Of a DNA stretch of 64,000 bases, positions 21,493 to 60,291 are shown piece after piece. A program made the translations under genes and the position numbers. How positions within the stretch are numbered: position 1 is the stretch's first letter; each line of letters starts with the position of its first letter. The notes under the pieces are model-generated. The model saw nothing but the letters and a program-made list of their open reading frames with translations, had not been told where the DNA came from and made no database searches. Source of the stretch: Zanthoxylum bungeanum (lineage: Eukaryota; Streptophyta; Magnoliopsida; Sapindales; Rutaceae). The stretch spans positions 186,001-250,000 of the forward strand of contig SKCR01036751.1 of assembly GCA_019454045.1 (NCBI GenBank), read 5' to 3'.

Positions 21493-21505
21493 GCTCTGAT
21501 ACCAT

Positions 21506-31174: not shown

Positions 31175-32147
31175 TATTGACGGATGATTTTTGTCTCAGG
31201 AGCAGTATCGGGATAGTGCTCCCGGGACAACATTTCATCAACCTTGAATTTGTTTGGTTATGGGGGGACCAAACACGAAAAATTTAACGGAAAATAAGAA
31301 AACACACCAGAAACTGAAATGAAAGGATTTAACATGGTTCGATGGAGCTTGTCCAACCTACGTCCACGGTCGCAAAGCGGGGTGGTGGGTTCTTTTATTA
31401 CTGAACCGAGCTCAGCCGACCTGTTTTAAAGAAGGTCTAACAAAAAACCGAGCAGGTTGCTTTCCTTTCTCTGTTTCTTACAAGTTGCGTTTAAGTGAAA
31501 ATTTTGGTAACCCTTACAAATGTGATTGAACTTCCTTTATATACTACTCAATATGTGGCATTGTTCTCGCCTCTTCATGACGTCCGCCTCAAAGATTTGT
31601 ATATATGCATATTTCCGGCGATTTGACAAGTTCTCTTCTCCATTCTGACATCGCCGAAAGTAACACCTTCCCTACGAATTCATGTCACATCACGTAGTCA
31701 AAGCACATTGTCATCCTCTTTTCATTTAATGATGACAGCCTTTTTGAATTTCGGACGCGAGTAGTTTTGGGAGGGAAAAATCCAGTTGCCCTAAACCCAC
31801 TCTGATCTCCTGAAGGTCGATCAGATGATGAACCGAACTTTTCCCATAACTTCCGACCTGACCCAAAATACCCGAGCTAACCATCATGGTTCAGGGAGAT
31901 GGTGAACATGAAACGAGCTATATGACCGTTGTGGTCGGTCTCGGCTCTGATGTGGTCGATCTCTACTCTGCTATAGTTAGTCTGAGTTGTCTTGAACTGT
32001 ATCACCTGTCTTCTGTGGCCGGTCTCTACTCTGGCACGGTCGGCCTCTAAGAGTTGATCAACGCTGTGTTTTCTGGATGATGGGATCTTCCCTATTTGCT
32101 CTTACTGAACTGTACAAAAGACTTAGCCGCAGAAATCCCCATCAACA
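31175..32147 (-). repeat. 3' LTR of G2
   Basis: 973 bases, matching 39340-40328. Left terminus reads TATTGACGG instead of TGTTGACGG. TATA-like TATATAAAGG on the minus strand near 31534-31543. The purine-rich tract AACTAGAGGACAGA (minus strand) abuts its right edge. Confidence 0.9.
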
Positions 32148-32283
32148 TCTGTCCTCTAGTTCTCGGTTCCAACGAGCGTATGAGTTGGTGTTGGGAACTA
32201 TGAGAAAATTGAAATGAGCTAATCAACTAACTGGTGGCCCGTCATCGGGGTTGTACAAAAGGCTGCTCAAACGTCATCTTCAG

Positions 32284-32530
32284 GTCATCCACAGTGTCTC
32301 CAAACTGAAGAAATAAAGCAGAATCGGCGGAATGAATCCGGCCCCGATCTGATGAAATAAAGCAGATTCGGCGGAACGAATTCGGCCCCGATCTGAAGAA
32401 ATAAAACAGATTCGGTGGAACGACCCCGAGCTAGTGGAACATTTGCATCGGCGGAACGAATCCAGCCCCGAGCGGGTGGAACATAACAGTCTCGGCGGAA
32501 CGAATCCAGCCACGAGCTAGTGGAACATTT
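32284..32530 (-). repeat. Tandem repeat of about 45 bases in the G2 3' region
   Basis: Unit includes CGGCGGAACGAATCC and CCCCGAGC. The same unit recurs in G4 near 59170 and, in opposite orientation, in G3 at 43386-43605. Confidence 0.75.
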
Positions 32531-32865
32531 GAGACTTACTCGAGGGAAGATTTTCAACCTCTGAGGCTCTGCGAGTCCTGGCGCGGGCGTCCCTTTGCCA
32601 GACCAACGAAAAAAAAAAAAGAAACAAAGTAAAGTTAATAATAACAATAATAATAAAAATGGAGGTGACTTTAGCACATACCCCATACAAAATCATAAGC
32701 AAAAAATAGCAACTCGGATGCTCTGAGGCAGCGTCCTGTCGAGGATCCAAAACACAATTCTGAACCAATTCAGTGTTCTGGTTAACCAGGCTACGGATAC
32801 GTCGATCCGGGCGGTCAGGAAAATCCCCACGGGGGGCATGGACACCCCGTGTGTGCCCTCCATAG

Positions 32866-33415
32866 GTGGTTCTCAACGGGACTCACCCGCCGACTCGTAG
32901 GGGTAAAAACCTCCCTAGGTCCGGTTTACCCGAGACTCCTATAATCAAGGGCCCCATTCGGCCAAACCCAAGTCAGGTGATCTGATGGTACTCAACGGGA
33001 CTCACCAGCCGACTCGAATGGGCAAAAACCTCCTTAGGTCCGGTTTACCCGAGGCTCCATGTAATCAAGGGCGTCATTCGACAAAACTCAGTCCAGGTGG
33101 TCTGATGGTACTCAGCGGGACTCACTTCGACTCGTATGGGCAAAAACCTCCCTAGGTCCGGTTTACCCGAGACTCCTGTAATCAAGGACACCATTCGGAA
33201 AAACTCAAACCAGGTGGTCTGATGGTACTCAGCGGGACTCACCAGCCGACTCGTAGGGGCAAAAACCTCCCTAGGTTTGGTTTACCCGAGACTCATGTAA
33301 TCAAGGGCGCCATTCGGCAAAACCCAAGCCAGGTGGTCTGATGGTACTCAACAGGACTCACCATCCGACTCGTAGGGGGAGAAACGTCCCTAGGTCTGGT
33401 TTACCCGAGCTATTC
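32866..33415 (-). repeat. Tandem repeat of about 118 bases, five copies
   Basis: Copies begin near 32868, 32985, 33104, 33222 and 33341, each with ACTCAACGGGACTCACC and CCGGTTTACCCGAG. Two further repeats of another kind (GGGTTTGATAATGACAC) lie at about 33457 and 33588. Confidence 0.85.
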
Positions 33416-33869
33416 CTCAAAAATAAGAGCCATGGGGTAGTAACGCTCCGGCCTCATGGGTTTGATAATGACACTCGGGAGTGGTGTGCCACAAGGGGTT
33501 CGCGCGTTTCCCACATGCGCCCTATCATTTGATGCGTTCTGAATCCTCAAAAGCGAACGGGACCAGGTCGGGACACTTCCACCCGAGGGTTTGATAATGA
33601 CACCCGGGATTGGTGTGCCACGGGCTTGGTGCCCTCCCCAGTTACCGATCACCCCTTCGCATCGAGCACGTCACAAGAATATTGAACATGATTTTCGCAT
33701 TTAATTAAACAACTAGTAGAATGGACATGTTTCTTAATTCTAAAGAGAAAAACATGTTCATATTCATGAGACCTCTTGCCCTTTTACTACTCTTGGTGGG
33801 TCATTCAAGAGAGTTTTTTATAATGACTTTCTGGTTCTGCCCGGCTTATCTAATTACTTGCGGCATAAG

Positions 33870-35090
33870 AGAAAAGATTACTGGAAGTACCTTCTCAGCA
33901 TCTCGCGTTCCATGGCTTCCTGAGCCGGATACCGTCCAGTTGCTCCAAGAGATAAGTATCCGGTCTCACAATCTCTGATACTCTATATGGTCCTTCCCAC
34001 TTGGCGCCTAATGAACATTCCTAAGGCCGGCGGGTATTCAATGTGACCCTCTTCAAAACCAAGTCTCTGGGGAGGAAAGATCGAATCTAGACTCTCTTAT
34101 TGTAAAAACGGGCCATTCTCTGTTGCCATACAGCTGCTTTCATAGCCGACTTCTCTCATTTTTCTTCATCCACGATCGAGATGATTCCTGATAAGTTCTT
34201 ATTTTGTTCGGCCTCAAATTGCGGTTGGTGGGTGATCATCCATATTTCTGCCGGGATAACAGCTTCACACCCATAAGCCAAAAAAAAACGGGGTCTCTCC
34301 CGTGGAATCCTTGTAGGTCGTCCGGTGCGCCCACAGTACTTCTGGTAATTCTTCGACCCATATGCCTTTACAAGATCCGAGCCGGGCCTTCAAGTTTACT
34401 TTGATCGTTTTGTTGGCGGCTTCGACCTGCCCGTTGGACTTGGGATGAGCCGGTGAAGCGAACCTCAAAGCAATTTGAAGATCTTCACAAAGTTTTTGGA
34501 AACCCTTGCTGTCAAACTGTTTCCCATTGTCGGTAATGATGGCCCGGGGAATCCCGAACCAGCAAATGATATTCTTCTTTATAAAAATTATGGCCTTTTT
34601 TTTCGGTGATTGTAGTCAGGGGTTCAGCCTCTACCCACTTGGTAAAATAATCGACTGCAACAATAGCGTACCTTGATTGTCCTCTCCCTGCTAGCATCGG
34701 CCCAATGATATCCAGTCATCACTGAGCGAACGGCCAGGGGCTCACCAGTGAAGTCAACTGTTCTGTCGACTGATGATGAAGATTGGCATTTTTCTGACAT
34801 CCCTCACACTTTCTGGCCACATTCATTCCTTCCTGATGCAAGGTCGGCCAATAGAATCCTTGTCTCAATGCCTTATGTGCGATAGACTGCCCTCCGACAT
34901 GACTTCCACATATACCCCCATGGATCTCCCTGAGCACATAGTCGGCTTCTTCTGTCGTGAGGCACCTCAAAAGTGGTACCGTATACCCCATTCGGTATAA
35001 CACTCCTTCTATCAGACAAAACTTTGAACTCCAGTATCTCAGCTTTCTTGCTTCTTTCTTATCTATGGGCGTCTCTCCGGTTTCCAAATA
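33870..35090 (-). pseudogene. G2 integrase
   Basis: Reads minus strand. Zinc region REIHGGICGSHVGGQSIAH with CEGCQ; core with VDYFTKWVEAE, a DNG-type second Asp (complement near 34530) and GQVEAANKTIK; then YGCEAVIPAEI after a poly-T frameshift near 34280; C-terminal WEGPYRVSE block near 33985. Confidence 0.88.
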
Positions 35091-35149
35091 CTTTTGATCG
35101 GGTCCATCCAGGAGGCCTCTTCTCCTACTTCAACTTCCATTACATCTGA

Positions 35150-35640
35150 TTTCCTAACACTCATCTCCTGTAGACAAATCAGCGGGATGGTTTTTGGCTT
35201 CTCTGATTTAATGGAATATGCCAGCCGAGCTAACGAATCTGCTTGATGGTTGTTTTCTCGACTGATCTGCTCGAACTGCACGTTACCCATTTCTCCGGCC
35301 AACTTCTTCACCTGAGCCATATATGTCATCATATTAGGCTCTCTAGCCTGAAACTCGCCTCTCAGCTGCTGAATGGCCAACTGGGAGTCGCTCTTTATGA
35401 TCACATCTCGAACACCCACTGCTGTGCACAACCTCAATCCGGCTAAAATGGCCTCGTACTCTGCTTCTATTGGTAGCCTCGAAAGCGAATCTCAAGGCGT
35501 AGATCACCTCCTCGCCGTCACTACTCTGTAACAAGACCTCGGCCCCACATCCTTGCGAACTAACAGATCCATCCACGGACAACTCCCACTTGGTCTCCGA
35601 AACTTCTAAAACCTGGGGCCCGGCGAACTCAGCTACAAAA
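35150..35640 (-). pseudogene. G2 second RNase H
   Basis: WELSVDGSVSSQGCGAEV, then RDVIIKSDSQLAIQQL and ISRENNHQADSLARLA: the Tat-type extra RNase H with its acidic residues and final His/Asp block. A frameshift lies near 35450. Confidence 0.82.
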
Positions 35641-35699
35641 TCCGCCAGAGCCTGTCCTTTTACTACCTCTCTTGGAAAATATGATATATCATATTCACT

Positions 35700-36990
35700 C
35701 AACTCCACCGACCATTTTACCAACCGGCCTGAAACCTCTGGTTTTATGCAGGATCTGCCTCAAATGGTGGTCGGTGTAGACTCTGATATGATGAGCCTGA
35801 AAGTATGGTCTCAGCTTCCTAGTAGCCGTAACCAATGATAATGACACCAGTTCATGAGCCGGATATCTCGTCTCCGCATCCAACAGGGCTTTGCTGATGT
35901 AGTACACCGGCCTTTGGATTTTATCGGCCTCCTGCATCAGCACTGAGCTCACAACATATTTAGAAACAGCTAAATACAAGAATAAAGTCTCACCATGGAT
36001 GGTTTAGCCAAAAGCAGGGGTTAGGCCAAATATTGCTTGAGCTGTGTAAAGGCTTCCTCGCATTCATCCGTCCATGTGACATCTTTCTTAATCTTCTTAA
36101 TCAACTTAAAAAATGGATGGCATTTGTCGGTGGCACGGGATATGAACCGGTTTAAGGCGGACACTCGACCTATCAAGCTTTACACTTCTTTAACTGTCCT
36201 GAGAGATTTCAAATCCAGAAGTGCTTGGATTTTCTGCGAGTTAGCCTCAATTCCTCGTGTGCTGACCATATATCCCAGAAACTTCCATGATGCCACTCCA
36301 AATGCACACTTCTCTGGATTCAACCTCATATTGTGCTTCCTTATTAGCTCAAAGGTTTATGTGAGGTAGGCCAGATGACCCTCCAGCTTCATAGTCATTG
36401 TTATCATGTCATCCACATACACTTGCATGGTTTTTCCGATGAGGGGCTTAAAGATCTTGTTTACCAACCTCTGAAATGTTGCCTCTGCATTCTTCAAACC
36501 GAAAGACATCACTCTATAACACTACAACCCCCGATTCGTAATGAATGCAGTCTTCTCCTCGTCTCCGGGGTGCATTTTTACCTGGTTGTAACCTGAGAAT
36601 ACGTCCATGAAATTGAGCAACCTGTGACAGGCAGTTGAATCCACCAATTGATCAACTTTGGGGAGTGAGAAACTGTCTTTCGGGCAGGCTTTATTAAGGT
36701 CGGTGAAGTCCACACACATCCTCCATTTCCCGCTAGGCTTTTTTTACCAAAACCACATTCGAAACCCACTCCGGGTACTTTACATCTCGAATGAAACATG
36801 CATTCAGCAATCCCTCTACCTCGACCTCTATTGCCTCACAGCTTTCTTGGTTGAATATCATTCTCTTCTATTTTACCGGCTTCTGACTCGGATCTACTGC
36901 CAAGTGATGGCTGATAAACTTAGGGTCTATCCCGGGTATGTCACTGTGCCCCCAAGCGAAGATATATGCATACTGCTTCAAGAGCTTTAG
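35700..36990 (-). pseudogene. G2 reverse transcriptase and RNase H
   Basis: MCVDFTDLNKACPKDSF and MDVFSGYNQVKMHPGDEEK near 36560-36719; catalytic YVDDM on the complement near 36408-36422; RNase H YYISKALLDAETRYPAHE near 35900. Frameshifts lie near 36520 and 36720. Confidence 0.88.
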
Positions 36991-37129
36991 GAGATCCTTC
37001 TTTAGGTTTTCCTCCAAACATGCCCATATCTTGATGATTTTTTCCTGGGCCGAAGAGTTCCACCGACTCCAACTCTTCGGATGCTCCCAAACGGGCAAAC
37101 TTCTTGACTCGCACATCTGGACATTCTTC

Positions 37130-37700
37130 TGATTCCTCATCCTCCTCCTCCTCCTCCATTCTTCTTTTCTTTCGCCGACCCTGCTCGACACAAATGGTTT
37201 CTTTCGAAATGGTGGCAAAGCAACTCCGGGCCACCTTCTGGCTTCCACACACAATCCTGATCCCGGCCCACAATGACTTGATAACTGCTTATGCAATCTA
37301 CTACCGTGAAGTCTATCATGATCGTCCGGGTGCATGGAGAAGTTCCAACCATCATGGCCAACTGTATTCTTCCCAATGGGATGACTGTTGCCCCTCCAAA
37401 CCCATACAGGGGCGTCCCGTCCTGGGTTACTGTCGCATATTATATCCCCAATCCATCCAAGGTTTCATTGGAGATTATATCGACTGCACTCCCCGGATCT
37501 ACCAGAATCATATCTACCTATGTTCCCTCTACCACTGCTTTAATTATCAATGTGTCATCATGCGGAAAACTTACCCCATGTGCATCCTCGTCGGTGAACA
37601 TTATAGGGATCGACCGGTCACTTTGCACGCATTGGGCCTGCCCCACCGACATTATTTCCACTCCTCGGGCCTTGCAGTAACTTTTCCTTGACCGGTTCGA
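37130..37700 (-). pseudogene. G2 aspartic protease
   Basis: The active site LVDPGSAVDII lies on the complement of about 37475-37507, intact unlike in G1. After VDCISSYQVIVGR about 27 residues present in G1 are missing before VCGSQKVARSCF, a small in-frame-sized deletion. Confidence 0.82.
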
Positions 37701-37739
37701 GTCTCTGGCCAACATCATTCCTCCGGCAATGGTATATGT

Positions 37740-39288
37740 TTGTCTATGGTCTTGCCGCTGTCATGGCCCCTTGGCCAATGTACTCATTTAGATAACCGTT
37801 CTAGGCAAGATTCTTCATATGCTCTCGCAGATCCTTACAACCCTCGGCTGAGTGTCACCTCATATAGTGGTGCACACAATAATGTTTTTCGTTCTTCTTT
37901 TCTACCGGATACTTTCTTAGATCGGGTTCCATTAAGAGGCCCCTACTTTGAATTTCTTTCGCAATCTGAGCCAATGGCTTGTTCAGAGGCGTGTACCATA
38001 CTCCTCCGGCAACATCGTTTACTTGCACCTGAGCTCTTCTCTCTTGTGGGACATTGATGGGAGGCATCAGACGGAACTCCCTCTGCCTGGGAGGAGGATC
38101 CCTCAATTTCCTATCCGGCCTTCTCGGCATCTCCAGCTTCTGCACTCTTTCCTTTTGAACCCCTCACTTCTGAACGGCCTTCTCATCTTCCTCTATCAAG
38201 ACGAACTTCCTTGCCAGCTCCAGAGTTGTGGCGTAGTCTGGCATGTCCTGGACCATTAAGTGAGTCCACAATCTTCCAACCTTTAGAGCCCCTTTAAGAC
38301 TTTACAGGGCCTCCGTTGACTCATAGGCTCCGACTTCGAGCACCAAATTGAGGTACATTTCAATAAAATTCTTCAGGGGCTCATCGTCCCTCTGCTTTAT
38401 CAACCTCAACTCTCTCATTGTCTTTTTTGGAACACACACTCCTTTAAAATGTCGAATAAACAATTTCCTGAGCTGTGGGAAACTATTGATGCTTCATGTA
38501 GTCAAATTTTTGAACCACGGAATCGCGGGTCCACCCAGAGTCAGAGGGAACACCTTGCAGATGGCTTCTCCCACCATTCCTTGTACTTCCATCAGCAAGA
38601 CAAAACTTTCGATGTGAGACTTAGGATCGGTATGACCTCTGTAGACATTTATAGACGGCATCGTGAACCGCTTAGGGAACATAGTCAACAAGATTTTTTC
38701 AGTAAAAGGAGATGTCATTTCTCCGTCCTGGCCATCTCTTTTATCGGCCTTCAGATTTTCCTCTCACTTACTCATTTCTTTTCTAAACCAGGCTTTCATT
38801 TGGTTATCGTTATCATCATGCTGCCTCCCCCGAACATCCTCACGTCTGTTGCCCCGATCACGACGCGCACCGTGGCTAGACACCTCTCGCTCCCCTCTCT
38901 CATATCTCATACATTCTCTCTTCTTAGAGCGTGGACTATTACTTGATGACTCCAGCGTTTTTCTTTCTCCTTCTCCCCCCAGCATTATTTCTGTTGGCGG
39001 GGCTCTCGCTATCACCACTGACCTCACCCTTTGTGGCTCACTCCTCCCGGATTCATTGTCACCGCTTAGATCTACCACCATTTTCCCTTCCGATATCCCA
39101 TTTCTCCTCCGACTTGGACCAGCCTCTAATCTTTCATCATTCGCTTTTTCCAGTCTCTCCAATTTATCCATCATGGCCTTCAGGAGCGTCTGGTTCTCCT
39201 CTCTATCCTTTCGCATACTTTCCTTCATCCTTCTCATCCATGCTGTTGTTGAACTCTCTGATGACCTGTGGTTCCCATACTCCGCCAT
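37740..39288 (-). pseudogene. G2 gag
   Basis: Begins MAEYGNHRSSESSTTAW, a charged N-terminus; capsid core MPSINVYRGHTDPKSHIES and GEAICKVFPLTLGG; nucleocapsid-like CVHHYMR near 37860. Same domain order as G1 gag, with several frameshifts. Confidence 0.85.
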
Positions 39289-39319
39289 CGTCTCACTACG
39301 TAATCTGCTTTTTGCTTGT

Positions 39320-39338
39320 TCCCCACAGACGGCGCCAA
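39320..39338 (-). other. Primer-binding site of G2
   Basis: On the minus strand TTGGCGCCGTCTGTGGGG follows the 5' LTR. The exact string is repeated in G3 and G4. A tRNA 3' end would pair here to start reverse transcription. Confidence 0.8.
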
Positions 39339-39339
39339 C

Positions 39340-40328
39340 TGTTGACGGACGATTTTCATCTCAGAGGCAGTATCGGGATAGTGCTCCCGGGACAACTTTC
39401 CATCAACCTTGAATTTATTTTGTTATGGGGGACCAAAGGCAAATTTAGTGGAAAATAAGAAAACACACCAGAAATCGAAATGAAAGGATTTAACGTGGTT
39501 CGGTGGAGCTTGTCCAACCTACGTCCACGGTCACAAAGCGGGGTGGGGGTTTTTTATTACTGAACCGAGCTCGGCCGACCTATTTTAAAGAATGTCTAAC
39601 AAAAAACCGAGCAGGTTGATTTCCTTTCTCTATTTCTTACAAGTTGCGTTTAAGTGAAAAATTTTGGTAACCCTTACAAATGTGATTGAACTTCCTTTAT
39701 ATACTATTCAATATGTGACACTGTTCTCGCCTCTTCATGACGTCCGCCTCGAAGATTTGTAGATATGCAGATTTCCGGCGATTTGACAGGTTCTCTTCTT
39801 CCTTCTGACATCGCCGAAAGTAACACATTCCCTATGAATTCTTGTCACATCACGCAGTCAAAGAACACTGTCATCCCTTTTTCATTTAATGATGACATCC
39901 TTTTTGAATTTCGGACATGAGTAGTTTTGGGAGGGAAAAATACAGTTGCCCTAAACCCACTCAGGTCTCCTGAAGGTCGGTCAGATGATGAACCGAACTT
40001 TTCCCATAACTTCCGACCTAACCCAAAATACCCGAGCTAACCATCATGGTTGAGGGATAGGGTGAACATGAAACGAGCTATATGACCGTTGTGGTCGGTC
40101 TCGGCTCTGATGTGGTCGGTCTCAGCTCTGATGTGGTCGGTCTCTACTCTGCTGTAGTTAGTCTGAGTTGTCCTGAACTGTAGGAACTGTCTTCTGTGGC
40201 TGGTCTCTACTCTGACACGGTCGGCCTCTGAGAGTTGATCCACGCTGTGTTTTCTGGATGAGAGGATCTTCCCTATTTGCCCTTACTGAACTGTACAAAA
40301 GACTTAGCCGCAGAAATCCCCATCAACA
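39340..40328 (-). repeat. 5' LTR of G2
   Basis: 989 bases, TGTTGACGG at the left, CCATCAACA at the right, closely similar to the 3' LTR with scattered substitutions and small indels. Confidence 0.92.
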
Positions 40329-40637
40329 GGATATGAATATAATTTTTCATCACCATTAATTGAATGAGTCAAATATAAATATTTACATCTCATATTATAC
40401 TCGATCCATTATTATCTCTGATTGTTATTTTGGTTGCTCCTATAAATCCCAAAGCAAGCTTATAACATTTTCAATTTTTTTTCTTCTTTTTTGAGTTTCC
40501 CTGAATTTATGTCACTGTAAATTACCCTTATTGTTTGTAATGTTAATGCATCAATTAGGAGCTGGCTACATCATACTTATTAAACTTGAATTAATCACTC
40601 GGTGACCTAAACTTATAGATCAATTTTAAATATATAT

Positions 40638-41408
40638 TGTTGATGGTGTTTTCGGGCACTATGTTATTTAAACAACACGACAGGGGTAAAAAGGGTAACT
40701 CCATTGATCGAGACCGTTAAAGCCGACCCAACTTGACGGTAAGAGGCCGAGCACTTTATACTAAATGGCCGAGCACTTGAGATCGGATGACCGAGCATAT
40801 CAGATCGACAGCAGCATTCTCAGTTCAAATGGCTATCATGACCGACCTCATGAAGACCGAGCACATGACGAGGCGTGCTCAGGAGGAAGATAAGCATCCT
40901 ATTCTTGCGGAAAAGGGATAAGTTGTCCTACTTTAATGGGGTAAAGTAATAACTTAATATCCTAATAGGATAAAGGAAGTAAATGTAGTTTTGATTAGGA
41001 ATCCTTATGGGAAAGGGAATAGTTTCAACTAGGAAATTCTTATAGGAGAATGAATATGATTTCTACACTATTATAAATAGAAGGGTAGAGCATGTGTAAA
41101 AGACATCTGAAAATCATTACAAAAAGTGAGAGATTAGAACCATCAAGCTCTGATTTGTAAAAGCAAAGAGGAGACCTGAGGAGTATATTTGAGTAATAAA
41201 AAGCACCATCCTGTTCTTGCCCGTGGACGTAGGTCGGATCCCAAAATCCACCGAACCACGTTAAAACACCTTGTCTGATTGGCGTATTTTCTTGTTTTCC
41301 GCTAAATTTGCCTTGGTCCCCCATAACCAAACAAATTCACTATTGAAGGAGGATTACCTCGGGAGTGATATTCCAATATTACCCTGAGACCAAAATCTGC
41401 CGTCAACA
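40638..41408 (+). repeat. 5' LTR of G3
   Basis: 771 bases, TGTTGATGG to CCGTCAACA. A TATA box TATAAATAG lies near 41072, which would start transcription through the captured fragments in their sense direction. Confidence 0.92.
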
Positions 41409-41409
41409 G

Positions 41410-41428
41410 TTGGCGCCGTCTGTGGGGA
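41410..41428 (+). other. Primer-binding site of G3
   Basis: TTGGCGCCGTCTGTGGGG directly after the 5' LTR, identical to that of G2. Confidence 0.8.
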
Positions 41429-41461
41429 ACTCTACGAAAAGCAACTCGCGTAATAAGACAA

Positions 41462-41530
41462 ATGGCGGAAGGCGGAAACCACCAATCGTCAGGGAACTCG
41501 GCTGCGGATTGGATGGAGAAGATAAAATAA
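41462..41530 (+). pseudogene. G3 gag N-terminal remnant
   Basis: MAEGGNHQSSGNSAADWMEK, then a stop. The same start appears in G4 and (as MAEYGNHRSSES) in G2, showing descent from a G2-like gag. It may be kept because packaging signals overlap it. Confidence 0.8.
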
Positions 41531-41715
41531 ATGGAACCAGACGATCTGCCGTTTTTAAAGATCTCAGGCGAAGATGATTCGCTATTGCCGCTGCAGCATA
41601 TCACGAACGACGAAGTTTCGAGCCTCAACAAGGCTTATTTCGCTTACTCGCCCCTTCAAAATCCCCAGATCTGCATGCTCCGTCAATCATCCTCTTGTCT
41701 CTCCAATCGTGGATC

Positions 41716-42035
41716 TTACAGCATGATGTGGAAGAGATTGATCTTGGAAAAGTGGAGGAGTAAGCATCCCAGTTGAAGACGGACTTGATTCTGAAAGAAA
41801 GAGAAACACTGGAAGTCTTAAAAGAGCTGGAAGCAACTAAAATGGTCGTCGAAGAATTAAAGTCGAAGCTACAAAAAAGAAGTATCAGAGTAAATGTGAC
41901 ACTTGAGTCAGAATCGGACAATGAGAATGTCGCACCTGATTTGAATTCAGATAATGGGAATATGACACCTGCGGTGGAGGAAACACAAACGAAGAGCCAT
42001 AAAGGTCTTGAGGGTGCCAAATCAAAACTTGATGA
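41716..42035 (+). pseudogene. Captured host fragment: WEB family (DUF827) coiled-coil protein
   Basis: From 41722 the frame reads HDVEEIDLGKVEE, a TAA stop where a Gln codon would fit, then ASQLKTDLILKERETLEVL and a KELEATKMVVEELKSKL stretch, a heptad coiled coil characteristic of plant WEB/DUF827 proteins (chloroplast-movement WEB1/PMI2 relatives). No intron is seen. The limits are approximate; the downstream acidic stretch (ESESDNENVAPDLNSDN) may belong to it. The origin of 41531-41715 is not recognised. Identification is from memory of the family pattern. Confidence 0.65.
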
Positions 42036-42760
42036 GAGGACAAAAACCCGTGCAACGCCTTGATAATGGTCAACAGATGGACGTTCTATCCCAGATTCTT
42101 TTCAACAGGGCTATGGCACAGCTTGGACTTTGTGCATTTCGTGCTGGACTGGTTGCCAAAGGACACAGCTGTCTGTCTGAACTGCATTCAGGTGGAAAGG
42201 TGAAGGAATTGCTTGCCCGAGGTACTTCTCAAAGCAGATATCATGAGAAGACTCCAGAATAGGAAAGGCTGGAAAGAAGACGTCATGTGCCACACCGTAT
42301 ACACATAAAACTGGAGCTCCTGGAGACTGTCCATCTCATTTGCGCCATGCCGCTTGAGGACCCTAACATGGCAGCAAAACCCATGGTGCTAAGAGCGAGG
42401 TGATAAGCAAGACTTTCCGCCGGTTGATTGAGGTAAGTGAAAAGCGAACTTTCACGGGTCCTTCTGAAAACATAAGGGACCATGTAATAGCGGCAACCAG
42501 GGCTCTCACAAGGAAAACTTCTAGAAGGCTTTTGATGTGATAAACTTTCTCGATGTATGGAGGCTACTTAAGAACCGGGAGAGTGTCATTGAGATGGTCG
42601 GGGCCAAAATTAAGGAAGAAGTTCCGAGGACATACCTTCTTAACTTCACCTCGTCTTATGATTCACTAAGCTTGGACCAACTCACCAAGGTGTTTGACCT
42701 TTCAGAAACCCAAACTCACATAAGTTGATGACCAATGAGGAGCTTCATGCAAATTGGGAT
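42036..42760 (+). pseudogene. Captured host fragment: translation initiation factor eIF3 subunit C
   Basis: Recognisable blocks of plant eIF3c in order: [45 protein letters not shown], a TAG in place of Gln (42260), [24 protein letters not shown], a frameshift, KTFRRLIEVSE and TFTGP, another frameshift near 42500, then [32 protein letters not shown] and NEELHANWD. eIF3c is a core scaffold of the initiation complex. About 230 codons are present with no intron, so the source was probably spliced mRNA. It cannot encode a working product. Confidence 0.88.
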
Positions 42761-43276
42761 CTACTGCAGATTCTGTTATTTTTACCATAAGAGCCGAGAG
42801 GGGCATTCGCAAACCAACTTCAACTTGATGAGAAAAGGAGAATACAAATGGCTCTTGATGTGGCAAAGGGAATGAATTACTTGCACTCAAGCCATCCGAC
42901 CATTGTGCATCAAGATCTAAAATCTCCAAATCTTCTTGTTGATAAGAATTGGGTTGTAAAGGTCTGTGATTTTGGGTTGTCTCGCATGAAACACCATACT
43001 TTTCTGTCTTCGAAATCTACTGCAGGCACGCCTGAGCGGATGGCGCCAGAAGTTCTCAGGAATGAACCAGCTAATGAGAAATGTGATGTATATAGTTTTG
43101 GTGTGATATTATGGGAGTTGGCTTCGTTGAGTATTCCTTGGAAAGGTTTGAACCCAATGCAGGTTGTTGGAGCTGTTGGGTTCCAGAATAGACGTCTCGA
43201 AATTCCAGAGGACGTTCATCCGGCAGTGGCACAGATAAGCCAGAGCAGCTACAAGTTTTTCGTTTTTCTGATTTGA
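42761..43276 (+). pseudogene. Captured host fragment: Raf-like MAPKKK kinase domain (EDR1 type)
   Basis: Directly follows the eIF3c piece in the same frame. After one stop (about 42789) it reads [20 protein letters not shown], then an open frame 42848-43276 with catalytic loop VHQDLKSPN (Arg of HRD replaced by Gln), [21 protein letters not shown] (usual Trp replaced by Arg) and [13 protein letters not shown], then [20 protein letters not shown]. The block order and wording fit plant EDR1-like Raf kinases. The N-lobe is absent and the C-lobe is cut off after VAQI. No introns interrupt it although kinase domains of this family are usually split. Not a functional kinase. Confidence 0.88.
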
Positions 43277-43385
43277 AATGAGGAAAGGCAACGGATCCCA
43301 AAAAGGTGAGTAAACCACTTCTGACTTAGGTTGACATTCGATTATGCTTGTTTGTTATGGCTCACACAATGATTTTGATATTTGT

Positions 43386-43605
43386 TTTCCGGCTCGGGTC
43401 TGCTCTTGTACCGCCGAGACCGATATCTCTTTCCGGCTCGGGTCTGCTCTTGTACCGCTGAGACCGATGTCTCTTTCCGGATCGGGTCTGCCCTTGTACC
43501 GCTGAGACCGATGTCTCTTTCCGGATCGGGTCTGCTCTTGTACCGCCGAGACCGATGTGGTCTTTCCGGCTCGGGTCTGCTCTTGTACCGCCGAGACCGA
43601 TGTTT
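43386..43605 (+). repeat. Tandem repeat of about 45 bases, five copies
   Basis: Unit includes TTCCGGCTCGGGTCTGC and TGTACCGCCGAGACCGAT, starting near 43387, 43432, 43477, 43522 and 43564. Related units occur in G2 and G4. Confidence 0.85.
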
Positions 43606-45340
43606 GTTACAGCTCGGGGTCGGGTTACGTCCCACCGAGTCTGCCTTTGGACTGGGGACGTAACATTCCCCCAGGACCAAGTGATTTTTACAGCTCGGGG
43701 TCGGGCGCGATGTCCACCGAGTCTGTCTTTAGACTGGGGACGTAACATTCCCCCAGGACCAAGTGATTTTTACAGCTCGGGGTCGGGTGATGTCCCACCG
43801 AGTCTGTCTTTGGACTGGGGACGTAACATTCCCCCGGGGCCAAGTGATTCTTACAGATCGGGGTCGGGCGATGTCCCACCGAGTCTGCCCTTTGGACTGG
43901 GGACGTAACATTCCCCCAGGACCAAGTGATTTTTACAGCTCGGGGTCGGGTGATGTCCCACCGAGTCTGTCTTTGGACTGGGGACGTAACATTCCCCCAG
44001 GGCCAAGTGATTCTTACAGATCGGGGTCGGGCGATGTCCCACCGAGTCTGCCCTTTGGACTGGGGACGTAACATTCCCCCAGGGCCAAGTGATTCTTACA
44101 GATCGGGGTCGGGCGATTGTCCCACCGAGTCTGCCCTTTGGACTGGGGACGTAACATTCCCCCAGGCCAAGTGATTCTTACAGCTCGGGGTCGGGCGATG
44201 TCCCACCGAGTCTGCCCTTTGGACTGGGGACGTAACATTCCCCCAGGACCAAATGATTCTTACAGCTCGGGGTCGGGCGATTGTCCCACCGAGTCTGCCC
44301 TTTGGGCTGGGGACGTAACATTCCCCCAGGGCCAAATGATTCTTACAGCTCGGGGTCGGGCGATGTCCCACCGAGTCTGCCCTTTGGACTGGGGACGTAA
44401 CATTCCCCCAGGACCAAATGATTCTTACAGCTCGGGGTCGGGCGATGTCCCACCGAGTCTGCCCTTTGGGCTGGGGATGTAACATTCCCCCAGGGCCAAG
44501 TGATTCTTACAGATCGGGGTCGGGCGATGTCCCACCGAGTCTGCCCTTTGGACTGGGGACGTAACATTCCCCCAGGGCCAAGTGATTCTTACAGCTCGGG
44601 GTCGGGCGATGTCCCACCGAGTCTGCCCTTTGGACTGGGGACGTAACATTCCCCCAGGACCAAGTGATCTTTACAGCTCGGGGTCCGGCGATGTCCCACC
44701 GAGTCTGCCCTTTGGACTGGGGACGTAACATTCCCCTAGGGCCAAGTGATTCTTACAGCTCGGGGTCGGGCGATGTCCCACCGAGTCTGCCCTTTGGACT
44801 GGGGACGTAACATTCCCTCAGGACCAAATGATTCTTACAGATCGAGGTCGGGCAATGCCCCACCGAGTCTGCCCTTTGGACTGGGGACGTAACATTCCCC
44901 CAGGACCAAGTGATTCTTTCAGCTCGGGGTCGGGTTACGTCCCACCGAGTCAGCCCTTCGGACTGGGGACGTAACATTCCCCCAGGTCCAAGTGCCTTTC
45001 TCAGCTCGGGGTCGGGGTACGTCCCACCGAGTCAGCCCTTCGGACTGGGGACGTAACATTCCCCCAGGACCAAGTGCCTTTCACAGCTCGGGGTCGGGGT
45101 ACGTCCCACCGAGTCAGCCCTTCGGACTGGGGACGTAACATTCCCTCAGGTCCAAATGCCTTTCACAGCTCGGGGTCGGGGTACGTCCCACCGAGTCAGC
45201 CCTTCGGACTGGGGACGTAACATTCCCTCAGGTCCAAGTGTCGTTCTCAGCTCGGGGTCGGGTTGCGTCCCACCGAGTCAGTCCTTCGGACTGGGGACGT
45301 AACGTTCCCCCAGGCCCGAGCATCTCTCACAACTCGAGAT
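43606..45340 (+). repeat. 82-base tandem repeat, about 21 copies
   Basis: Unit contains CAGCTCGGGGTCGGG, TCCCACCGAGTCTGCCC, and GGACTGGGGACGTAACATTC. Copies from 43615 to about 44930 are very similar; those from about 44930 onward form a second subtype (GAGTCAGCCCTTCGG). The same unit, inverted in the window, is in G4 near 58690-59125. Confidence 0.93.
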
Positions 45341-45740
45341 AGGATCACATGCCACCGAGCACATCATCGTTAGCTCAGAGGCAAAAATTTTCTCCTCACA
45401 ATCGAGATTGGATCAGTCAGGGATCAGGACCCCCAAATCTCTGGTACAGATATTACAGAGGAGGAGTCATTTTTAGTTTGGACAACAAGAGGAACTTCAT
45501 CTCTTGATGGAACGACCCAAGTAAGCAATTTGCTTTGAGGTGGAGAATCATTCTGAATAGAGCCAGCATCTCCAATAAACCGAGGATATGAAGATAGAAA
45601 CAGAAGACTTAGTTGATGGCAAAGACAATTTCTCGGTGATTTCTGGAACGACCACCAGCTAGGCGATCAGCACACCATCTTTTTTTATAGTTCCCGGCAT
45701 CAACTCACAAACTCGTTGTTACCGAGAACTAGGGGACAGA
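45341..45740 (+). other. G3 tail and polypurine tract
   Basis: Non-coding. Contains GTTCCCGGCATCAACTC and CGTTGTTACCGAGAAC, shared with G1, G2 and G4 just before the 3' LTR, and ends in the purine-rich AGGGGACAGA. Confidence 0.65.
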
Positions 45741-46508
45741 TGTTGATGGTGTTTTTCGGGCACTATGTTATTTAAACAACACGACAGGGGTAAAAAGGGT
45801 AACTCCATTGATCGAGACCGTTAAAGCCGACCCGACAACTTGACGGTAAGAGGCCGAGCACTTTATACTAAATGGCCGAGCACTTGAGATCGGATGACCG
45901 AGCATTATCAGATCGACAGCAGCATTCTCAGTTCAAATGGCTATCATGACCGAAGACCGAGCACATGACGAGGCGTGCTCAGGAAGATAAAGCATCCTAT
46001 TCTTGCGGAAAAGGGATAAGTTGTCCTACTTTAATGGGGTAAAATAATAACTTAATATCCTAATAGGATAAAGGAAGTAAATGTAGTTTTGATTAGGAAT
46101 CCTTATGGGAAAAGGGAATAGTTTCAACTAGGAAATTCTTATAGGAGAATGAATATGATTTCTACACTATTATAAATAGAAGGGTAGAGCATGTGTAAAA
46201 GACATCTGAAAATCATTACAAAAAGTGAGAGATTAGAACCATCAAGCTCTGATTTGTAAAAGCAAAGAGGAGACCTGAGGAGTATATTTGAGTAATAAAA
46301 AGCATCATCCTGTTCTTGCCCGTGGACGTAGGTCGGATCCCAAAATCCACCGAACCACGTTAAAACACCTTGTCTGATTGGCGTATTTTCTTGTTTTCCG
46401 CTAAATTTGCCTTTGGTCCCCCATAACCAAACAAATTCACTATTGAAGGAGGATTACCTCGGGAGTGATATTCCAATATTACCCTGAGACCAAAATCCGC
46501 CGTCAACA
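45741..46508 (+). repeat. 3' LTR of G3
   Basis: 768 bases, nearly identical to the 5' LTR. TATAAATAG near 46171. Confidence 0.92.
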
Positions 46509-46513
46509 TATAT

Positions 46514-48303: not shown

Positions 48304-48308
48304 ATAAT

Positions 48309-49418
48309 TGAGAATTCGATTTTAAACAAGGTTCTGATCCTATGCGGAATTATAAACAATAAGCAGGACAAGTCATGTTACTGTTACTATGGATAAATTA
48401 ACAGGCAACCACAATAACAATTAAATAAAATTATGCTGCAAAATATTAAAACAATAGCATGAATTAAAGCAGCAAAATAAATCAAACCATACAAAATTCA
48501 ACACAATGATTTTGGTGACGAAGTGGAAAACTCTTCCGAGTAAAAAACCACTCCGGGTATAGGCTACCACCCGAATCCACTATATAGAGAAAAACTTACA
48601 GCGATGGTCAAGACCTATGCTGGCAACTCCACCGACTCAAGTACCTCAATACTGCAAGAACTAAAGGAACTTCTCAAGCCCGCGACCCACGGCTTTCTTC
48701 AGAACCTCTGAAGTCTCTGAATAGATTATATCACCAATGACGTCGGAACTCCGACTACCAAACTTCCTCCTAAAGAATTCTAAAGGCTTAGGGAATTTGG
48801 GTTAAGTTGTGTTAAAGGTTTATCAAAAAAACATTCACACCATCAATGAAGAAGACAATGAGATAAGAAGTCTTCAATGGTGGAATCAAAGAGAGTTGAA
48901 AGCTTTGAGAGGTTTTGGCTCAAGGGAAATATGCTTCAACTCTTTTCAACTAATGGGGAATGGCGGCTAAGAGTTATATTTATAGGTAGGGTGAAAACCT
49001 AGGGTTTTGCAGGCCAAAATCGCGTTCAAATCGCAGTCGCGTTCGAACGCTTACTTGAACGCTACTCGAACGCGCCTTTATGTGAATACTCGTTCGAACG
49101 CCAATCAAACACACAACGAACGGATGCTCTCTGGAATGATCCCGTTCGAACCCAACAAGAACGAGACTCGACATTTGCTCTCTGGAATTCCCGTTCGAAC
49201 CCGAAGACGAACGCGTCACTAACGCCACATGATCGAACCCATTCACGAACTCAGCATTAACGCCAATCGTTCGAATACTGCAACGAACGCACCATGAACG
49301 CATGTCTGATGCACAGCAGCCAAAAACCAGTCCAATTGTACAAAGATCTTCATGTAGGATTACAACTCAATTGAACTTGTTTTGTCACGGACACATGCCA
49401 ATAAAAATGGAGCTCACA
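48309..49418 (-). repeat. 3' LTR of C2
   Basis: 1110 bases. 49010-49290 is crowded with GTTCGAAC and CGAACGC motifs. TATA-like TATAAATATA on the minus strand near 48975-48984. The purine tract AAAGAGGGAGAT (minus strand) adjoins its right edge. Confidence 0.92.
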
Positions 49419-49430
49419 ATCTCCCTCTTT

Positions 49431-51040
49431 GGCATTCCGTGACAAAACACTACCAATTACAAAGACTACGGTAATATACCCAAAGATAAAGCAGTCAACT
49501 GTCAACCATCAAAACAGTGACTAATTACAATAGGACTCGATCTAATACCTAAACAAGTAATCTTGAAATAATGCCACTGCAGCAACATACCTGCTACCTG
49601 AAACATCCACAAACAACAATATATCGTGAAAAGCATTGGGATAATCAAGTAAAACATAAAGTAGGTAAAAATCTCATGCATGTACAAGTAGAAATCCCTC
49701 TCCCCTTAATCTTAACTCCCCTTAAAATGGAGATATCTAAAGGATATTATACGGCTCCCGCCTATATATTAGGCTCCCCCTTAATATCTTACTCTCCCCA
49801 TTTTTTGTCACGAAATGACAAAGGGTAAAAGAAACAGGAAAAATAACAGGAGAACATGAGACAACATATGCAAGAGCAAAAACAAACAGAATTACTCCCC
49901 CTCACTAACAGGCACATAGAGTTAGCAAAATAACACACGGGAAGTAATCCAAAAACTCAGAAAAGTGCAAAGGAAAGAACAAATTGGTATGCAATAACAT
50001 GAAGCACACACAAGCACATACTGAGATAAAAAAAACTGTTAAAGAACTGACTGAAACAACATATAAAGCTGACACAATGATACCAAGTCAGTATTCAGCT
50101 GTTTATGACATAAACAATATGCATCAATACAACACTTATGCATATGACATAAACACCAAATCATATAAAGCACTTGCGTGGAAAAATAAAGTGCATAACG
50201 AATCAAGGCTTAAGACCTTATTTTATGAGCTGGACACAGCCAAAGAAATCCATTTCTAAACAAACCAAGTCCACAAAATAGATGTTCAAACCCAGCACCA
50301 CTAGGACCTGAAATTTAGCAACATTGGTTGCATGCTATATTATTTACCCCACAAATATCATGAGCTCTATGTAATAACTCTTTCGAGTGAAGGGCTTTTG
50401 CCCTTATCTTTTGAATTTGGCCATTTTGGCTCTTTTGTACTTGAGTCTAATTTTTTTTTTTTCAAAAGGGGATAGCAAGGTCAATTAGTCAAATGTCACA
50501 CTGTTGAGCAAACAAGATATGATAGAAATTAGATTGCTATTCCAAAAACTCATACATGCGACTAAGCCTTGACAAACTAAAAACGTGTATGTGAAGGTAC
50601 AAGCACAGGATATACCAAAGGTTTTTATCACATGCACTCATGTATATAGAGCATCAAGAAAAATAAAGCATATCATACATGCATAATCATATATCCTACA
50701 TTCCAGGATCACATGCATAAGCTTTTCATGCTCTAACAAGCCGGAAAAAAAATTGTCTTTTTCATTTTCTATTTTTTTTTGGATTTTAACAAATAAAAAT
50801 AAAGACACAAACAGGCTTGTAAAACATCCAATGGTACGTGGAGTTGTATCCCGAGTACAGATCATACTACCGTCCATTCGGAATCGGCTATGAAATTTAT
50901 GTCCGGGTTTCCATCCTATATACCAAGGGACATATAACAAAAACAAGACACACACACACCCATATGCTGTGAAAACAAAATAAACGTGCAAAAACATAAA
51001 ACACACGCACACACACATGCAATGGGAAAATAAAAGTGCA
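49431..51040 (-). other. C2 non-coding region downstream of gag
   Basis: About 1.6 kb where pol would normally lie. AT-rich, several short open frames, (CA)n-rich patches near 50950-51020. No pol motif on either strand. Confidence 0.6.
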
Positions 51041-51044
51041 TCAT

Positions 51045-51869
51045 TTAAGCAGAGTTACACCGAAGTGCACTCTCATCATATCCATCAGGACACGCAGAAG
51101 AAGATGGGAATTCATCTTGCTTCCTCATCCAAACCTTTCTAGGAACCTCTTCCACATGAGAGTTCCCAGACAACAAAGCAAGTTTCTCACTCAAGAATTG
51201 AGCTTGTTTGGTTAGTACAGAAACTTGAGACATTAGATTTGACGAATCAAATCTATGAGACACACTCTTAGGCCTTCTCTTATATTTGTGCAACATGTAG
51301 CACTTAGGCCTAATATGTCCAGCCTTGCCACAGTGGTGGCACACAGGCACAAACCTCGGATGAGAGCGAGGTTTACCCACAACACCTCTAGATTGAGGTT
51401 GGGAAACAGTACGAGGAATAACAGGAGGAGAAACATGACTACACATAACAGGTTTCTTACCTAAGTCACATTTAGCTGCTATAAGCACAGCTTTGGAAGA
51501 AGAAGCCTTATTACAGTTAGGCTCAGAACTAATACCTAACATACGGTCCACCTTTATATTTCCACTAGAAAATACGGACAATTGGATTCTAGCATCTTCT
51601 AATATTTGGACTCTATTAGCTAGGCCTCTGTTCCTCTACTCTAGGTCATCAATCATCAAAAGACTTTGCTCAAATTTAGCTTGAGCTTCATTCTTTTCTA
51701 GCTCTACAGCTTTCAGCCTTTTATTGACCTCTATATTAGTCTTCTTAATAGCTAAACTCTCTTTAAAAAGTTTAGCATAAGCTACCTGAAGACTATCCTC
51801 ATCAACTGACTCACTGTGAGAGGATTCTGAACCAGAATCTCTAACATACTCGTTCCTCTCACCGGTCAC
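51045..51869 (-). pseudogene. C2 gag, C-terminal part with second zinc knuckle
   Basis: Two overlapping pieces. 51636-51869 gives a Ser/Glu-rich segment and a coiled coil (LFKESLAIKKTNIEVNKRL). 51045-51581 carries CHHCGKAGHIRPKC, a CCHC zinc knuckle, then a basic linker. A stop near 51640 separates them. In Copia gag-pol such a knuckle sits just before protease, which is absent. Confidence 0.75.
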
Positions 51870-52261
51870 ACTAGCAGGAAGGCTATATAATTGTCTTTTG
51901 GAGAATCATTACCTTCAGAATCACTAAGGGGTGCTGCCATAGCTTTCTTGCATTTAGCCCTGAGATATGTAGGACACTCGGATCTAACGTGCCCATATCC
52001 TTCACATTCATGGCACTGGACACCACGGGGTCTACTACCCATGTCCTCTCTAGACTCACTCATGCTATGCCTACTCTCTCTAGGCATATCCTTCTTATTC
52101 CTATTACTGTTATGACCACTCTTCTTAAGTTTAAGGAATTTCCTAAACTTATTTTCAAACAAGGCCAAATCACTATTCGTGATGGTATCATCGTCAAGGA
52201 ATGGGGGAAAATTTAAAGGTTGGCTTCTTTCCATAGTTAATTGGTCAATGATCGAGTTCAT
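51866..52261 (-). CDS. C2 gag, N-terminal part, UBN2 domain deleted
   Basis: 131 residues beginning MNSIIDQLTMERSQPLNF, close behind the primer-binding site. The usual N-terminal gag start (MERSQPLNFPPFLD) is joined directly to DDTITNSDLALFENKFRKFL, which in full-length Copia gag lies after the capsid-like UBN2 domain, so about 180 residues appear to be missing without breaking the frame. A CCHC zinc knuckle CHECEGYGHVRSEC follows. The product could bind RNA but lacks the capsid core. Confidence 0.75.
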   Translation of the reverse strand: MNSIIDQLTMERSQPLNFPPFLDDDTITNSDLALFENKFRKFLKLKKSGHNSNRNKKDMPRESRHSMSESREDMGSRPRGVQCHECEGYGHVRSECPTYLRAKCKKAMAAPLSDSEGNDSPKDNYIAFLLV

Positions 52262-52275
52262 GCTCTGATACCAAT

Positions 52276-53386
52276 TGAGAATTCGATTTTAAACAAGGTT
52301 CTGACCCTATGCGGAATTATAAACAATAAGCAGGACAAGTCCTGTTACTGTTACTATGGATAAATTAACAGGCAACCACAATAACAATTAAATAAAATTA
52401 TGCTGCAAAATATTAAAACAATAGCAGGAATTAAAGCAGCAAAATAAATCAAATCATACAAAATTCAACACAATGATTTTGGTGACGAAATGGAAAACTC
52501 TTCCGAGTAAAAAACCACTCCGGGTATAGGCTACCACCCGAATCCACTATATAGAGAAAAACTTACAGCGATGGTCAAGACCTATGGTGGCAACTCCACC
52601 GACTCAAGTACCTCAATACTGCAAGAACTCAAGGAACTCCTCAAGCCCGCGACCCACGGCTTTCTTCAGAACCTCTGAAGTCTCTGAGTAGATTATATCA
52701 CCAATGACGCCGGAACTCCGACTACCAAACTTCCTCCTAAAGAACTCTAAAGGCTTAGGGAATTTGGGTTAAGTTGTGTTGAAGGTTTATCAAAAAAATA
52801 TTCACACCATCAATGAAGAAGACAATGAGATAAGAAGTCTTCAATGGTGGAATCAAAGAGAGTTGAAAGCTTTGAGAGGTTTTGGCTCAAGGGAAATATG
52901 CTTCAACTCTTTTCAACTAATGGGGAATGGCGGCTAAGAGTTATATTTATAGGTAGGGTGAAAACCTAGGGTTTTGCAGGCCAAAATCGCGTTCAGATCG
53001 CAGTCGCGTTCGAACGCTTACTTGAATGCTACTCGAACGCGCCCTTTCTGTGAAGACTCGTTCGAACGCCAATCGAACGCACAACGAACGGATGCTCTCT
53101 GGAATGATCCCGTTCGAACCCAACAAGAACGAGACTCGAACATTTGCTCTCTGGAATTCCCGTTCGAATCCGAAGACGAACGCGTCACTAAGCCACATGA
53201 TCGAACCCATTCACGAACTCAGCATTAACGCCAATCGTTCGAACACTGCAACGAACGCACCATGAACGCATGTCTGATGCACAGCAGCCAAAAACCAGTC
53301 CAATTGTACAAATATCTTCATGTATGATTACAACTCAATTGAACTTGTTTTGTCACGGACACATGCCAATAAAAATGGAGCTCACA
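52276..53386 (-). repeat. 5' LTR of C2
   Basis: 1111 bases, TG to CA, nearly identical to 48309-49418, including the GTTCGAAC-rich part at 52985-53260. Confidence 0.92.
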
Positions 53387-53391
53387 ATAAT

Positions 53392-58480: not shown

Positions 58481-58684
58481 TCTATCCCCTAGTTCTCGGT
58501 AATAACGAGTTTGCGAGTTGATGCCGGGAACTATAAAAAAAGATGGTGTGCCGATGAATCCGTCGGTGGTCACTCCAGGAACCGCAGAGAAAAATGCATT
58601 GGCTGCAAATATGGTCCTTCCTGCCACCTTCATGTGCTCAGTCAACGAGGATCCCGATATCTACCCGTTGAGAAAATGCTTTGC

Positions 58685-59205: not shown

Positions 59206-59499
59206 TTGGGACTTATTCAGAAGGGAACTGGATCCTCTTTTGAAGCCCTATCAGTTTTGGCATGGGCATCCCCTTGTCAAACCTGATGAAAACGAAAACA
59301 AAACCTTGGAAAATAAAATCAAAACACGGTGGTGATTTAACACTTATCCAAAAACAACAGTAATGATGCCTCAAAACAGCGTCCTGTTTGAGGTCTCCCA
59401 AACATAATTCTGAACCTTTCAATTCAGAGTCCCGGCGAACCAGGATTTGGATCAAAGAGCGTTTAAAATGGTAAGGGCACATCCTCTATACTTCAGGTC

Positions 59500-60150: not shown

Positions 60151-60167
60151 AAATCGTACGGGAACAT

Positions 60168-60239: not shown

Positions 60240-60271
60240 TGTCTTACTACGCGAGCTGCTTTTTGTTGGAG

Positions 60272-60290: not shown

Positions 60291-60291
60291 C

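Follow-up and report, generated by a model that had tools for sequence, protein, structure and literature searches.

A young LTR retrotransposon of Zanthoxylum bungeanum with a mosaic of spliced host-gene pieces

The stretch of DNA analysed here, called the window (64,000 nucleotides, G000:C33154:186001-250000, within a 3.96 Gb assembly of 51,709 contigs), contains a retrotransposon at 40638-46508 whose interior carries pieces of five host genes, designated A to E in their order along the element. The reading favoured here, at a probability of roughly 0.85, is that of a young non-autonomous LTR element in which reverse-transcribed pieces of spliced host mRNA took the place of the original interior as a mosaic, in a history of five steps. 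Elements with A, A-B-A, C-D-E, and A-B-C-D-E cargo are all present in one genome, and these relatives suggest that the string was built stepwise, which offers a rare view of gene shuffling by copying errors. As a rule, only the end products of exon shuffling by retroelements are available for inference. The presence of the product, its likely intermediates, and the intron-bearing donors in a single genome makes the order of capture testable base by base, and the roles of microhomology versus splicing and the recombination of co-packaged RNAs can be tested in the same way.

The window element and its five cargo pieces

The LTR retrotransposon is defined by paired direct LTRs with TG..CA ends, a short target-site duplication, and a pre-insertion empty site on the homologous contig C23210, where 530 of 572 columns are identical across the joined flanks. 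The element boundaries given in a preliminary description of this DNA are real on the evidence of these features. Type I in the following list denotes the A-B-C-D-E arrangement, and positions are those of the window.

40633..40637, unstranded: target-site duplication TATAT, left copy, within a low-complexity AT run
40638..41408, plus strand: 5' LTR (TGTTGA...TCAACA), 771 nt, aligned with the 3' LTR
41409..41430, plus strand: putative primer-binding-site region TTGGCGCCGTCTGTGGGGA, called from its position adjoining the LTR
41462..41530, plus strand: gag stub, 22 codons and then a stop, of equal length in 6 of 6 type I copies examined
41517..41721, plus strand: cargo A, unnamed host gene; donor G000:C21701 (L032), 95.3% identity
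41722..~42031, plus strand: cargo B, WEB/WEMBL gene, start of exon 2; donor G000:C30046 (L036), 84% with gaps
42031..42761, plus strand: cargo C, eIF3c, three exon pieces; donor G000:C48116 (L014)
42754..42826, plus strand: cargo D, LSD1-like flavin amine oxidase gene, 73 nt; donor G000:C36081 (L033), 95.9%
42820..43289, plus strand: cargo E, Raf/CTR1-type kinase, last exons and part of the 3'UTR; donor G000:C7815 (L031)
43283..45740, plus strand: element tail with tandem repeats of 44 bp (43386-43603) and 82 bp (43607-45314)
45741..46508, plus strand: 3' LTR (TGTTGA...TCAACA), 768 nt, aligned with the 5' LTR
46509..46513, unstranded: target-site duplication TATAT, right copy

The element is young. 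Its LTRs differ by three transitions in 760 ungapped sites (K2P 0.004), and this corresponds to an insertion age of 0.15 My at the rate of 1.3e-8 quoted in PMC5664825 and PMC4290129. The LTR alignment contains 19 gap columns, many of them in homopolymers, and some of the indels between the LTRs as well as part of the broken frames may be assembly errors. The TTGGCGCCGTCTGTGGGGA region is also present in the compared relatives with small differences, and the tail is similar across the examined copies of types I to V, the five arrangements set out below. The LTRs and the absence of introns from the captured pieces set the element apart from Pack-MULEs and Helitrons, which are marked by terminal inverted repeats or by Helitron ends lacking a target-site duplication, and by capture of genomic sequence with its introns.

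The host cargo extends from 41517 to about 43289, and its five pieces are all in sense orientation. Block-by-block alignment of cargo to donors yields identities of 78-99%, far above chance, and the donors are intron-bearing genes of the same assembly. Piece A comprises the edge of the 5'UTR, the start codon, exon 1, and the first 12 nt of exon 2, with a 386-nt intron gone; a Pfam search with gene A returned no match. The donor exon of B matches the WEMBL family (Pfam PF05701, 2.7e-48). Piece C has lost introns of 74 and 691 nt and matches PF05470 (E 3e-25); its gene is found on three further contigs near-identical to C48116 (99.2-99.4%) and on a fifth, C26164, at 86-89%. What was once considered 31 nt of filler between B and C is eIF3c exon upstream of another removed intron. 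The family name of D rests on an upstream exon of C36081 that lies outside the 73-nt piece and gives PF01593 at 2.2e-17 together with LSD1 matches. Piece E has lost introns of 120, 118, 124, and 111 nt, runs beyond the kinase stop codon, and matches PF07714 (E 5.8e-33), with CTR1 as the best PDB match (E 5.8e-66). About 88 nt of E near 43238 are missing in the window copy and kept in sister copies.

The preliminary description had recognized a retrotransposon with pieces of WEB, eIF3c, and Raf-type kinase genes, in sense and in that order, and the Pfam and PDB matches and the donor alignments agree with it. Its count of three captured genes fell short of the five donors, as A (41517-41721) and D (42754-42826) had been missed, and its cargo limits of 41716-43276 are replaced by those given above.

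Downstream of the LSD1-like donor gene (L033, G000:C36081:7400-9000), the sequence resembles by eye the 134-bp tandem repeats of a small relative at 57720-61080 of the window. A member of the element family may adjoin or sit in this donor gene.

Intron loss and the joins between pieces

The donor introns that fall inside the window pieces (one in A, two in C, and four in E) are absent in 7 of 7 cases at exact GT..AG borders, and the source of the cargo is therefore spliced RNA. A spliced mRNA origin had been proposed for the cargo and is confirmed by this result, as well as by alignment to the species' own eIF3c, kinase, and WEB genes, in which the donors carry introns and the element displays exact exon joints. 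In type IV, gene A is represented by eight exon segments with seven introns absent. Six of these seven introns are GT..AG, and the seventh is an AT..AC intron starting with ATATCCTT, which we take from its consensus to be of the U12 type. In type V, five of eight junctions fit GT..AG, and the three that do not lie where the alignment is poor. Type III contains B without a further 83-nt GT..AG stretch. The row 'E i5' of the intron test refers to the sequence of L018, a type II element.

Microhomology is present at three joins and consists of 8 nt (TTGGGATC) between C and D, 7 nt (TCAACTT) between D and E, and 7 nt (AAGAAAG) between E and the tail, where type IV is taken as the original tail. 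For random joins of donor loci (n=400,000), a fraction of 0.00026 reaches at least 8 nt and 0.00076 at least 7 nt. The microhomology at these joins fits switching by reverse transcriptase. Template switching had been offered as the mechanism of capture, and it suits these three joins; at the join between A and B, which lies at splice sites, splicing is the likelier event.

At this join, A stops at TTACAG where gene A goes on with GTAATAAGG, a splice-donor-like site that agrees with 7 of 9 consensus positions, and B starts exactly at its own exon 2, behind TTGTTGTTAG. The two pieces overlap by 2 nt only. Among the 79 GT sites in the 1,542-nt copy of A, CAG/GTAATA is one of the five best, itself included, in counts that were made post hoc and not as a pre-planned test. 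This position at splice sites makes it likelier that a read-through or joined transcript was spliced than that a template switch took place, and the structure would be explained if an A-bearing transcript of the element had been spliced to exon 2 of the WEB gene. Given the 2-nt overlap, the coincidence with splice sites could also be due to chance. In the part of B's intron 1 that was examined, a plus-strand match of the window element was not found. The return from B to A in type III displays a short AAGAG-like overlap. The join between B and C lies on the same TTG/GT that type III removes as an intron, here joined to an AG in eIF3c; the donor-like site is weak (5 of 9 consensus positions), and the two pieces overlap by 1 nt.

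Relatives in the genome and the order of assembly

The family is divided into five types based on the cargo. Two of the contig searches scored 40 of 54 and 40 of 2,011 candidates, and counts from them are lower bounds; in the searches with the D region and the A/B region every candidate was scored. The genome search for further copies with the same cargo, which the preliminary description had called for, revealed type I on at least seven contigs (the window, C43066, C25858, C13735, C10994, C37968, and C42185), of which C37968 carries a deletion and C42185 has a match that begins inside C. Type II (gag-C-D-E) is present on C46269, C38302, and C33446, with C beginning 359 donor nt earlier than in type I (1508 vs 1867); C46269 and C38302 are 99.9% alike and are probably alleles. 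Type III was read at C24048 as gag-A-B-A-tail, with B reaching donor position 3008. The other three contigs, placed provisionally in type III (C32034, C20183, and C8818), give exactly the same figures when aligned to C24048 (91.8%, counted from the LTR) and probably represent one further insertion. L028 and similar sequences, considered as WEB donor genes, are type III elements. Type IV (gag-A-tail) was read at C46077 and assigned from match extents only at C46697, C41242, and C32704. Type V (C29220:132600-138584, L047 with L019) consists of gag, a 5' gene piece bearing a start codon, two stretches of the 26S proteasome subunit RPN9 (best PDB match E 4.5e-47), and a longer kinase piece.

At C46077:31500-36900 (L035 with L048), a large part of gene A's spliced mRNA follows the gag start in frame.

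Types IV, III, and II hold longer contiguous donor stretches than type I. As the exact regain of such stretches is unlikely, type I is, from the comparison of sequences, taken to be the derived form. One deletion at the end of E is common to type I (L002), type II (L012, L018), and type V, and is absent in both kinase gene copies examined (C7815, C51511); E was therefore probably captured once. A 9-nt stretch of D is deleted in the type II copies but not in type I, and hence the present type II elements are sisters of the parent, sharing a common ancestor with it, and not the parent itself. Types II to V are living relatives and not proven ancestors.

In the proposed history, the mRNA of gene A would first have been captured by an element, downstream of the gag start (type IV). 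Gene B would then have contributed a piece to the A cargo to give gag-A-B-A (type III), with the join of A to B made by splicing from the donor-like site in A to the real exon 2 of B and the join of B to A by a switch of reverse transcriptase. In a related line with kinase mRNA (E, longer in type V), switches guided by microhomology would have added D and C on the upstream side (type II). RNAs of type III-like and type II-like elements would subsequently have recombined into the A-B-C-D-E string of type I, as present in the window, and type I would have reached at least five separate genomic sites, represented by seven contigs, while swapping LTRs with family members. The mosaic itself, the loss of introns, the occurrence of the blocks apart from each other, the joins in common, and the mismatch of cargo and LTRs are observed; the order of events, the co-packaging, the splicing of A to B, and the mobilization in trans are inferred.

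An alternative history, which is very unlikely, ascribes all joins to template switching among co-packaged host mRNAs in one or a few reverse transcription events and regards the other types as deletion derivatives of a larger mosaic. The three joins with 7-8 nt of microhomology and the sense, spliced state of all cargo are in keeping with it. However, types II to IV hold longer, correctly spliced stretches (C from 1508 vs 1867, A in eight exon pieces, B to 3008), and they are not deletion products of the window type because these stretches are absent from it. These types largely refute the single-event history already, and the position of the A/B join on splice sites is a further point against it.

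A second alternative, which we consider very unlikely, is that the host first made A-B and C-D-E as chimeric transcripts or retrogenes, which elements then took up in finished form. The location of the A/B join at splice sites, as in a trans-spliced or read-through host transcript, speaks in its favour, whereas the distribution of the joins in the genome speaks against it. The D region matches 17 places, of which 10 contain the D/E join, all of them in elements, while D alone occurs in 5 and E alone in 2. The A/B region matches 19 places; the join is present in 10 (six type I and four type III contigs), each of which is an element copy, and one side only is present in 9. Furthermore, A flanks B on both sides in type III (C24048). 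Adjacency of the pieces in a locus outside any element had been named as a finding that would count against capture; each of the two joins lies in elements at all 10 of the places that contain it.

The assembly of the string from separate blocks in the favoured history is accompanied by a mismatch between cargo and LTRs. Pairwise comparison of six type I copies reveals 96.6-99.4% identity across gag start and cargo in the main aligned block, in contrast with LTRs that are 72.3-93.0% identical over the 15 pairs, in which the LTR of L005 is cut by the locus end and the L003 locus is rearranged. In bins of 150 columns, the LTRs of L002 and L007 contain patches of 98-99% beside patches of 78-84%. 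Because the copies share their cargo and differ in their LTRs, and do so in patches, the type I cargo appears to have recombined with several LTR backgrounds, and the LTR exchange between type I and other family members suggests co-packaging of different RNAs. The LTRs of type I are 70.0-87.8% identical to those of type II and 68.6-81.7% to those of type III, neither of which is close, and the gag start of the window element shares 88-89% identity with type II and 80.5% with type III. More partners than in a simple two-parent picture are needed, as these similarities fit neither parent closely.

The flanks of five type I copies (the window, C43066, C25858, C13735, and C37968) are similar in 0 of 10 pairs, and the five are therefore separate insertions. 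Among the other type I copies, the LTR pair of C10994 has a K2P of 0.005 over 1,011 sites, and that of C43066 is identical over 186 sites only. The LTRs of C25858 (L003) have a K2P of 0.234; the cargo of L003 is 99.4% like that of L002, tail-like sequence precedes its 5' LTR (L003 with L057), and the locus is rearranged or a two-element complex. An origin of the mosaic by DNA-level events (gene insertions, unequal crossing over, gene conversion) or by misassembly is highly improbable: the assembly is fragmented into 51,709 contigs, L003 looks rearranged, and gene conversion could explain the LTR exchange in part, but the introns are lost exactly at 7 of 7 window places, the structure recurs at unrelated flanks, and the near-identical LTRs, the target-site duplication, and the empty homologous site all oppose it.

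The window element probably did not gather its pieces one by one on its own; the A-B and C-D-E blocks occur separately in other elements and were seemingly joined later. It is somewhat more likely than not that the family acts as a serial exon assembler. Its members would capture spliced host mRNAs, in part by the two-step route of retroviral oncogenes, in which a read-through transcript is spliced and reverse transcriptase then switches template, and would afterwards recombine their cargo RNAs, so that five-gene strings are the outcome of sex-like exchange between elements, with no need for one lineage to capture gene after gene. By implication, plant LTR elements could acquire several genes without a succession of rare accidents within a single lineage, because blocks can combine between elements.

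Coding capacity, neighbouring elements, and known systems

The longest cargo frame in the window copy consists of 161 aa, is confined to the kinase, and has no start; it contains HQD vs HRD in the donor. In the frame list, no long chimeric reading frame of the window copy is visible by eye. A C-D-E fusion protein was rejected, since the C, D, and E frames do not continue into one another by eye. Type IV contains a 467-aa frame from gag into gene A, and type II a 92-aa gag-eIF3c frame. In a dN/dS comparison, piece E differs from C7815 by 12 synonymous and 7 non-synonymous substitutions, which mostly mirror the gene's own history and say nothing on the function of the cargo. The window cargo is most likely a passenger.

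No pol-like frame was noticed by eye between the LTRs among frames of at least 60 aa, Pfam having been run on five cargo and gag frames only, and the element is accordingly described as non-autonomous from its sequence. Its neighbour at 31177-40330 (minus strand) is a Ty3/gypsy element with RT and RNase H domains and with gag-like, second RNase-H-like, and integrase-like frames, the last recognized by eye. This neighbour (31.2-40.3 kb) is broken and older (LTR K2P 0.070). The primer-binding-site side and the gag start of the window element resemble it; as only the last part of the LTR matches, a shared origin rests on the ends, the primer-binding-site side, and the gag start. The window element may have been mobilized in trans by a Ty3/gypsy relative. 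A second RNase H is a mark of the Tat group, and the 82-bp tail repeats and the second RNase-H-like frame of the neighbour suggest Tat.

Further elements are present in the window. The small relative at 57720-61080 (minus strand) shares the gag start, is similar in its tail, and carries 134-bp tandem repeats (LTR K2P 0.046), and none of the five donor genes, the only genes compared, matched it. An LTR pair about 98% alike lies at 48306-53390 (minus strand). The gag-type frame there matches a zinc knuckle weakly (E 0.008), no pol was noticed by eye in the frame list, and this may be a gag-only (TR-GAG-like) element. At 16305-22910, two long direct repeats that are 94-98% alike and some 5.2 kb apart probably belong to an LTR element.

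Retroviral oncogene transduction proceeds by read-through and splicing, followed by non-homologous recombination. The present family resembles it in the fusion to the gag start (the 467-aa frame of type IV), the join at splice sites, and the joins with microhomology. It differs in that there is no virus and no selected oncogenic product, and in that blocks are combined between elements. A stage with an element lying in an intron of the captured gene was not seen.

Host-gene capture by LTR elements is described as widespread in plants (PMC5664825, PMC3726574, PMC7264820). Retroduplication in pepper, tomato, potato, and rice is traced to spliced mRNA of multi-exon parents (PMC5664825), and host genes copied into LTR elements are reported for rice and sorghum (PMC3726574). 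The window element is like these in carrying host genes copied into an LTR element from spliced mRNA. Two or three genes per LTR element are noted in the retroduplication account, where they are treated as an issue of picking retrogenes and not as mosaics (PMC5664825). Among the titles and opening parts of abstracts in the gene-capture literature, which include few subscription journals, a five-gene LTR mosaic with surviving intermediates was not recognized.

Tat/Retand Ty3/gypsy elements are described as carrying tandem arrays in the 3' internal region, and the reference list of the same article includes a title on an 82 bp family of Gypsy/TAT elements in Coffea (PMC11963269). The window element shares the tandem arrays before the 3' LTR and the 82-bp period, and differs from the elements so described in having 22 gag codons only, no recognizable pol, and host cargo instead. 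For plants, chimeric elements have been proposed to arise when reverse transcription switches templates between co-packaged RNAs, with abnormal switches put forward for BARE-2 and the long form of Veju (PMC1950507). In that account the switch joins element to element or to unknown DNA, whereas host mRNAs and cargo-bearing elements are joined here.

Multi-gene capture had been called much rarer for plant LTR elements than for Pack-MULEs and Helitrons, a statement that is incomplete given the precedent of maize Bs1 (PMC13317346). Bs1 is described there as an LTR element with pieces of proton ATPase, xylan endohydrolase, and beta-1,3-glucanase genes, none of them full-length, and its chimeric gene is transcribed and translated according to this review. 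The window element contains at least two unrelated host genes with their introns removed and hence belongs to the Bs1 class of multi-gene transducing LTR elements; its likeness to Bs1 as reviewed consists of several unrelated host genes inside one LTR element, with introns removed here at 7 of 7 places. The expressed chimeric ORF is a feature of Bs1, in contrast to the window copy, in which no long chimeric frame is apparent. Five donors, relatives with subsets and longer forms, and blocks recombined between elements further distinguish the present family from the published description. The mode of capture is Bs1-like, with likely intermediates preserved here.
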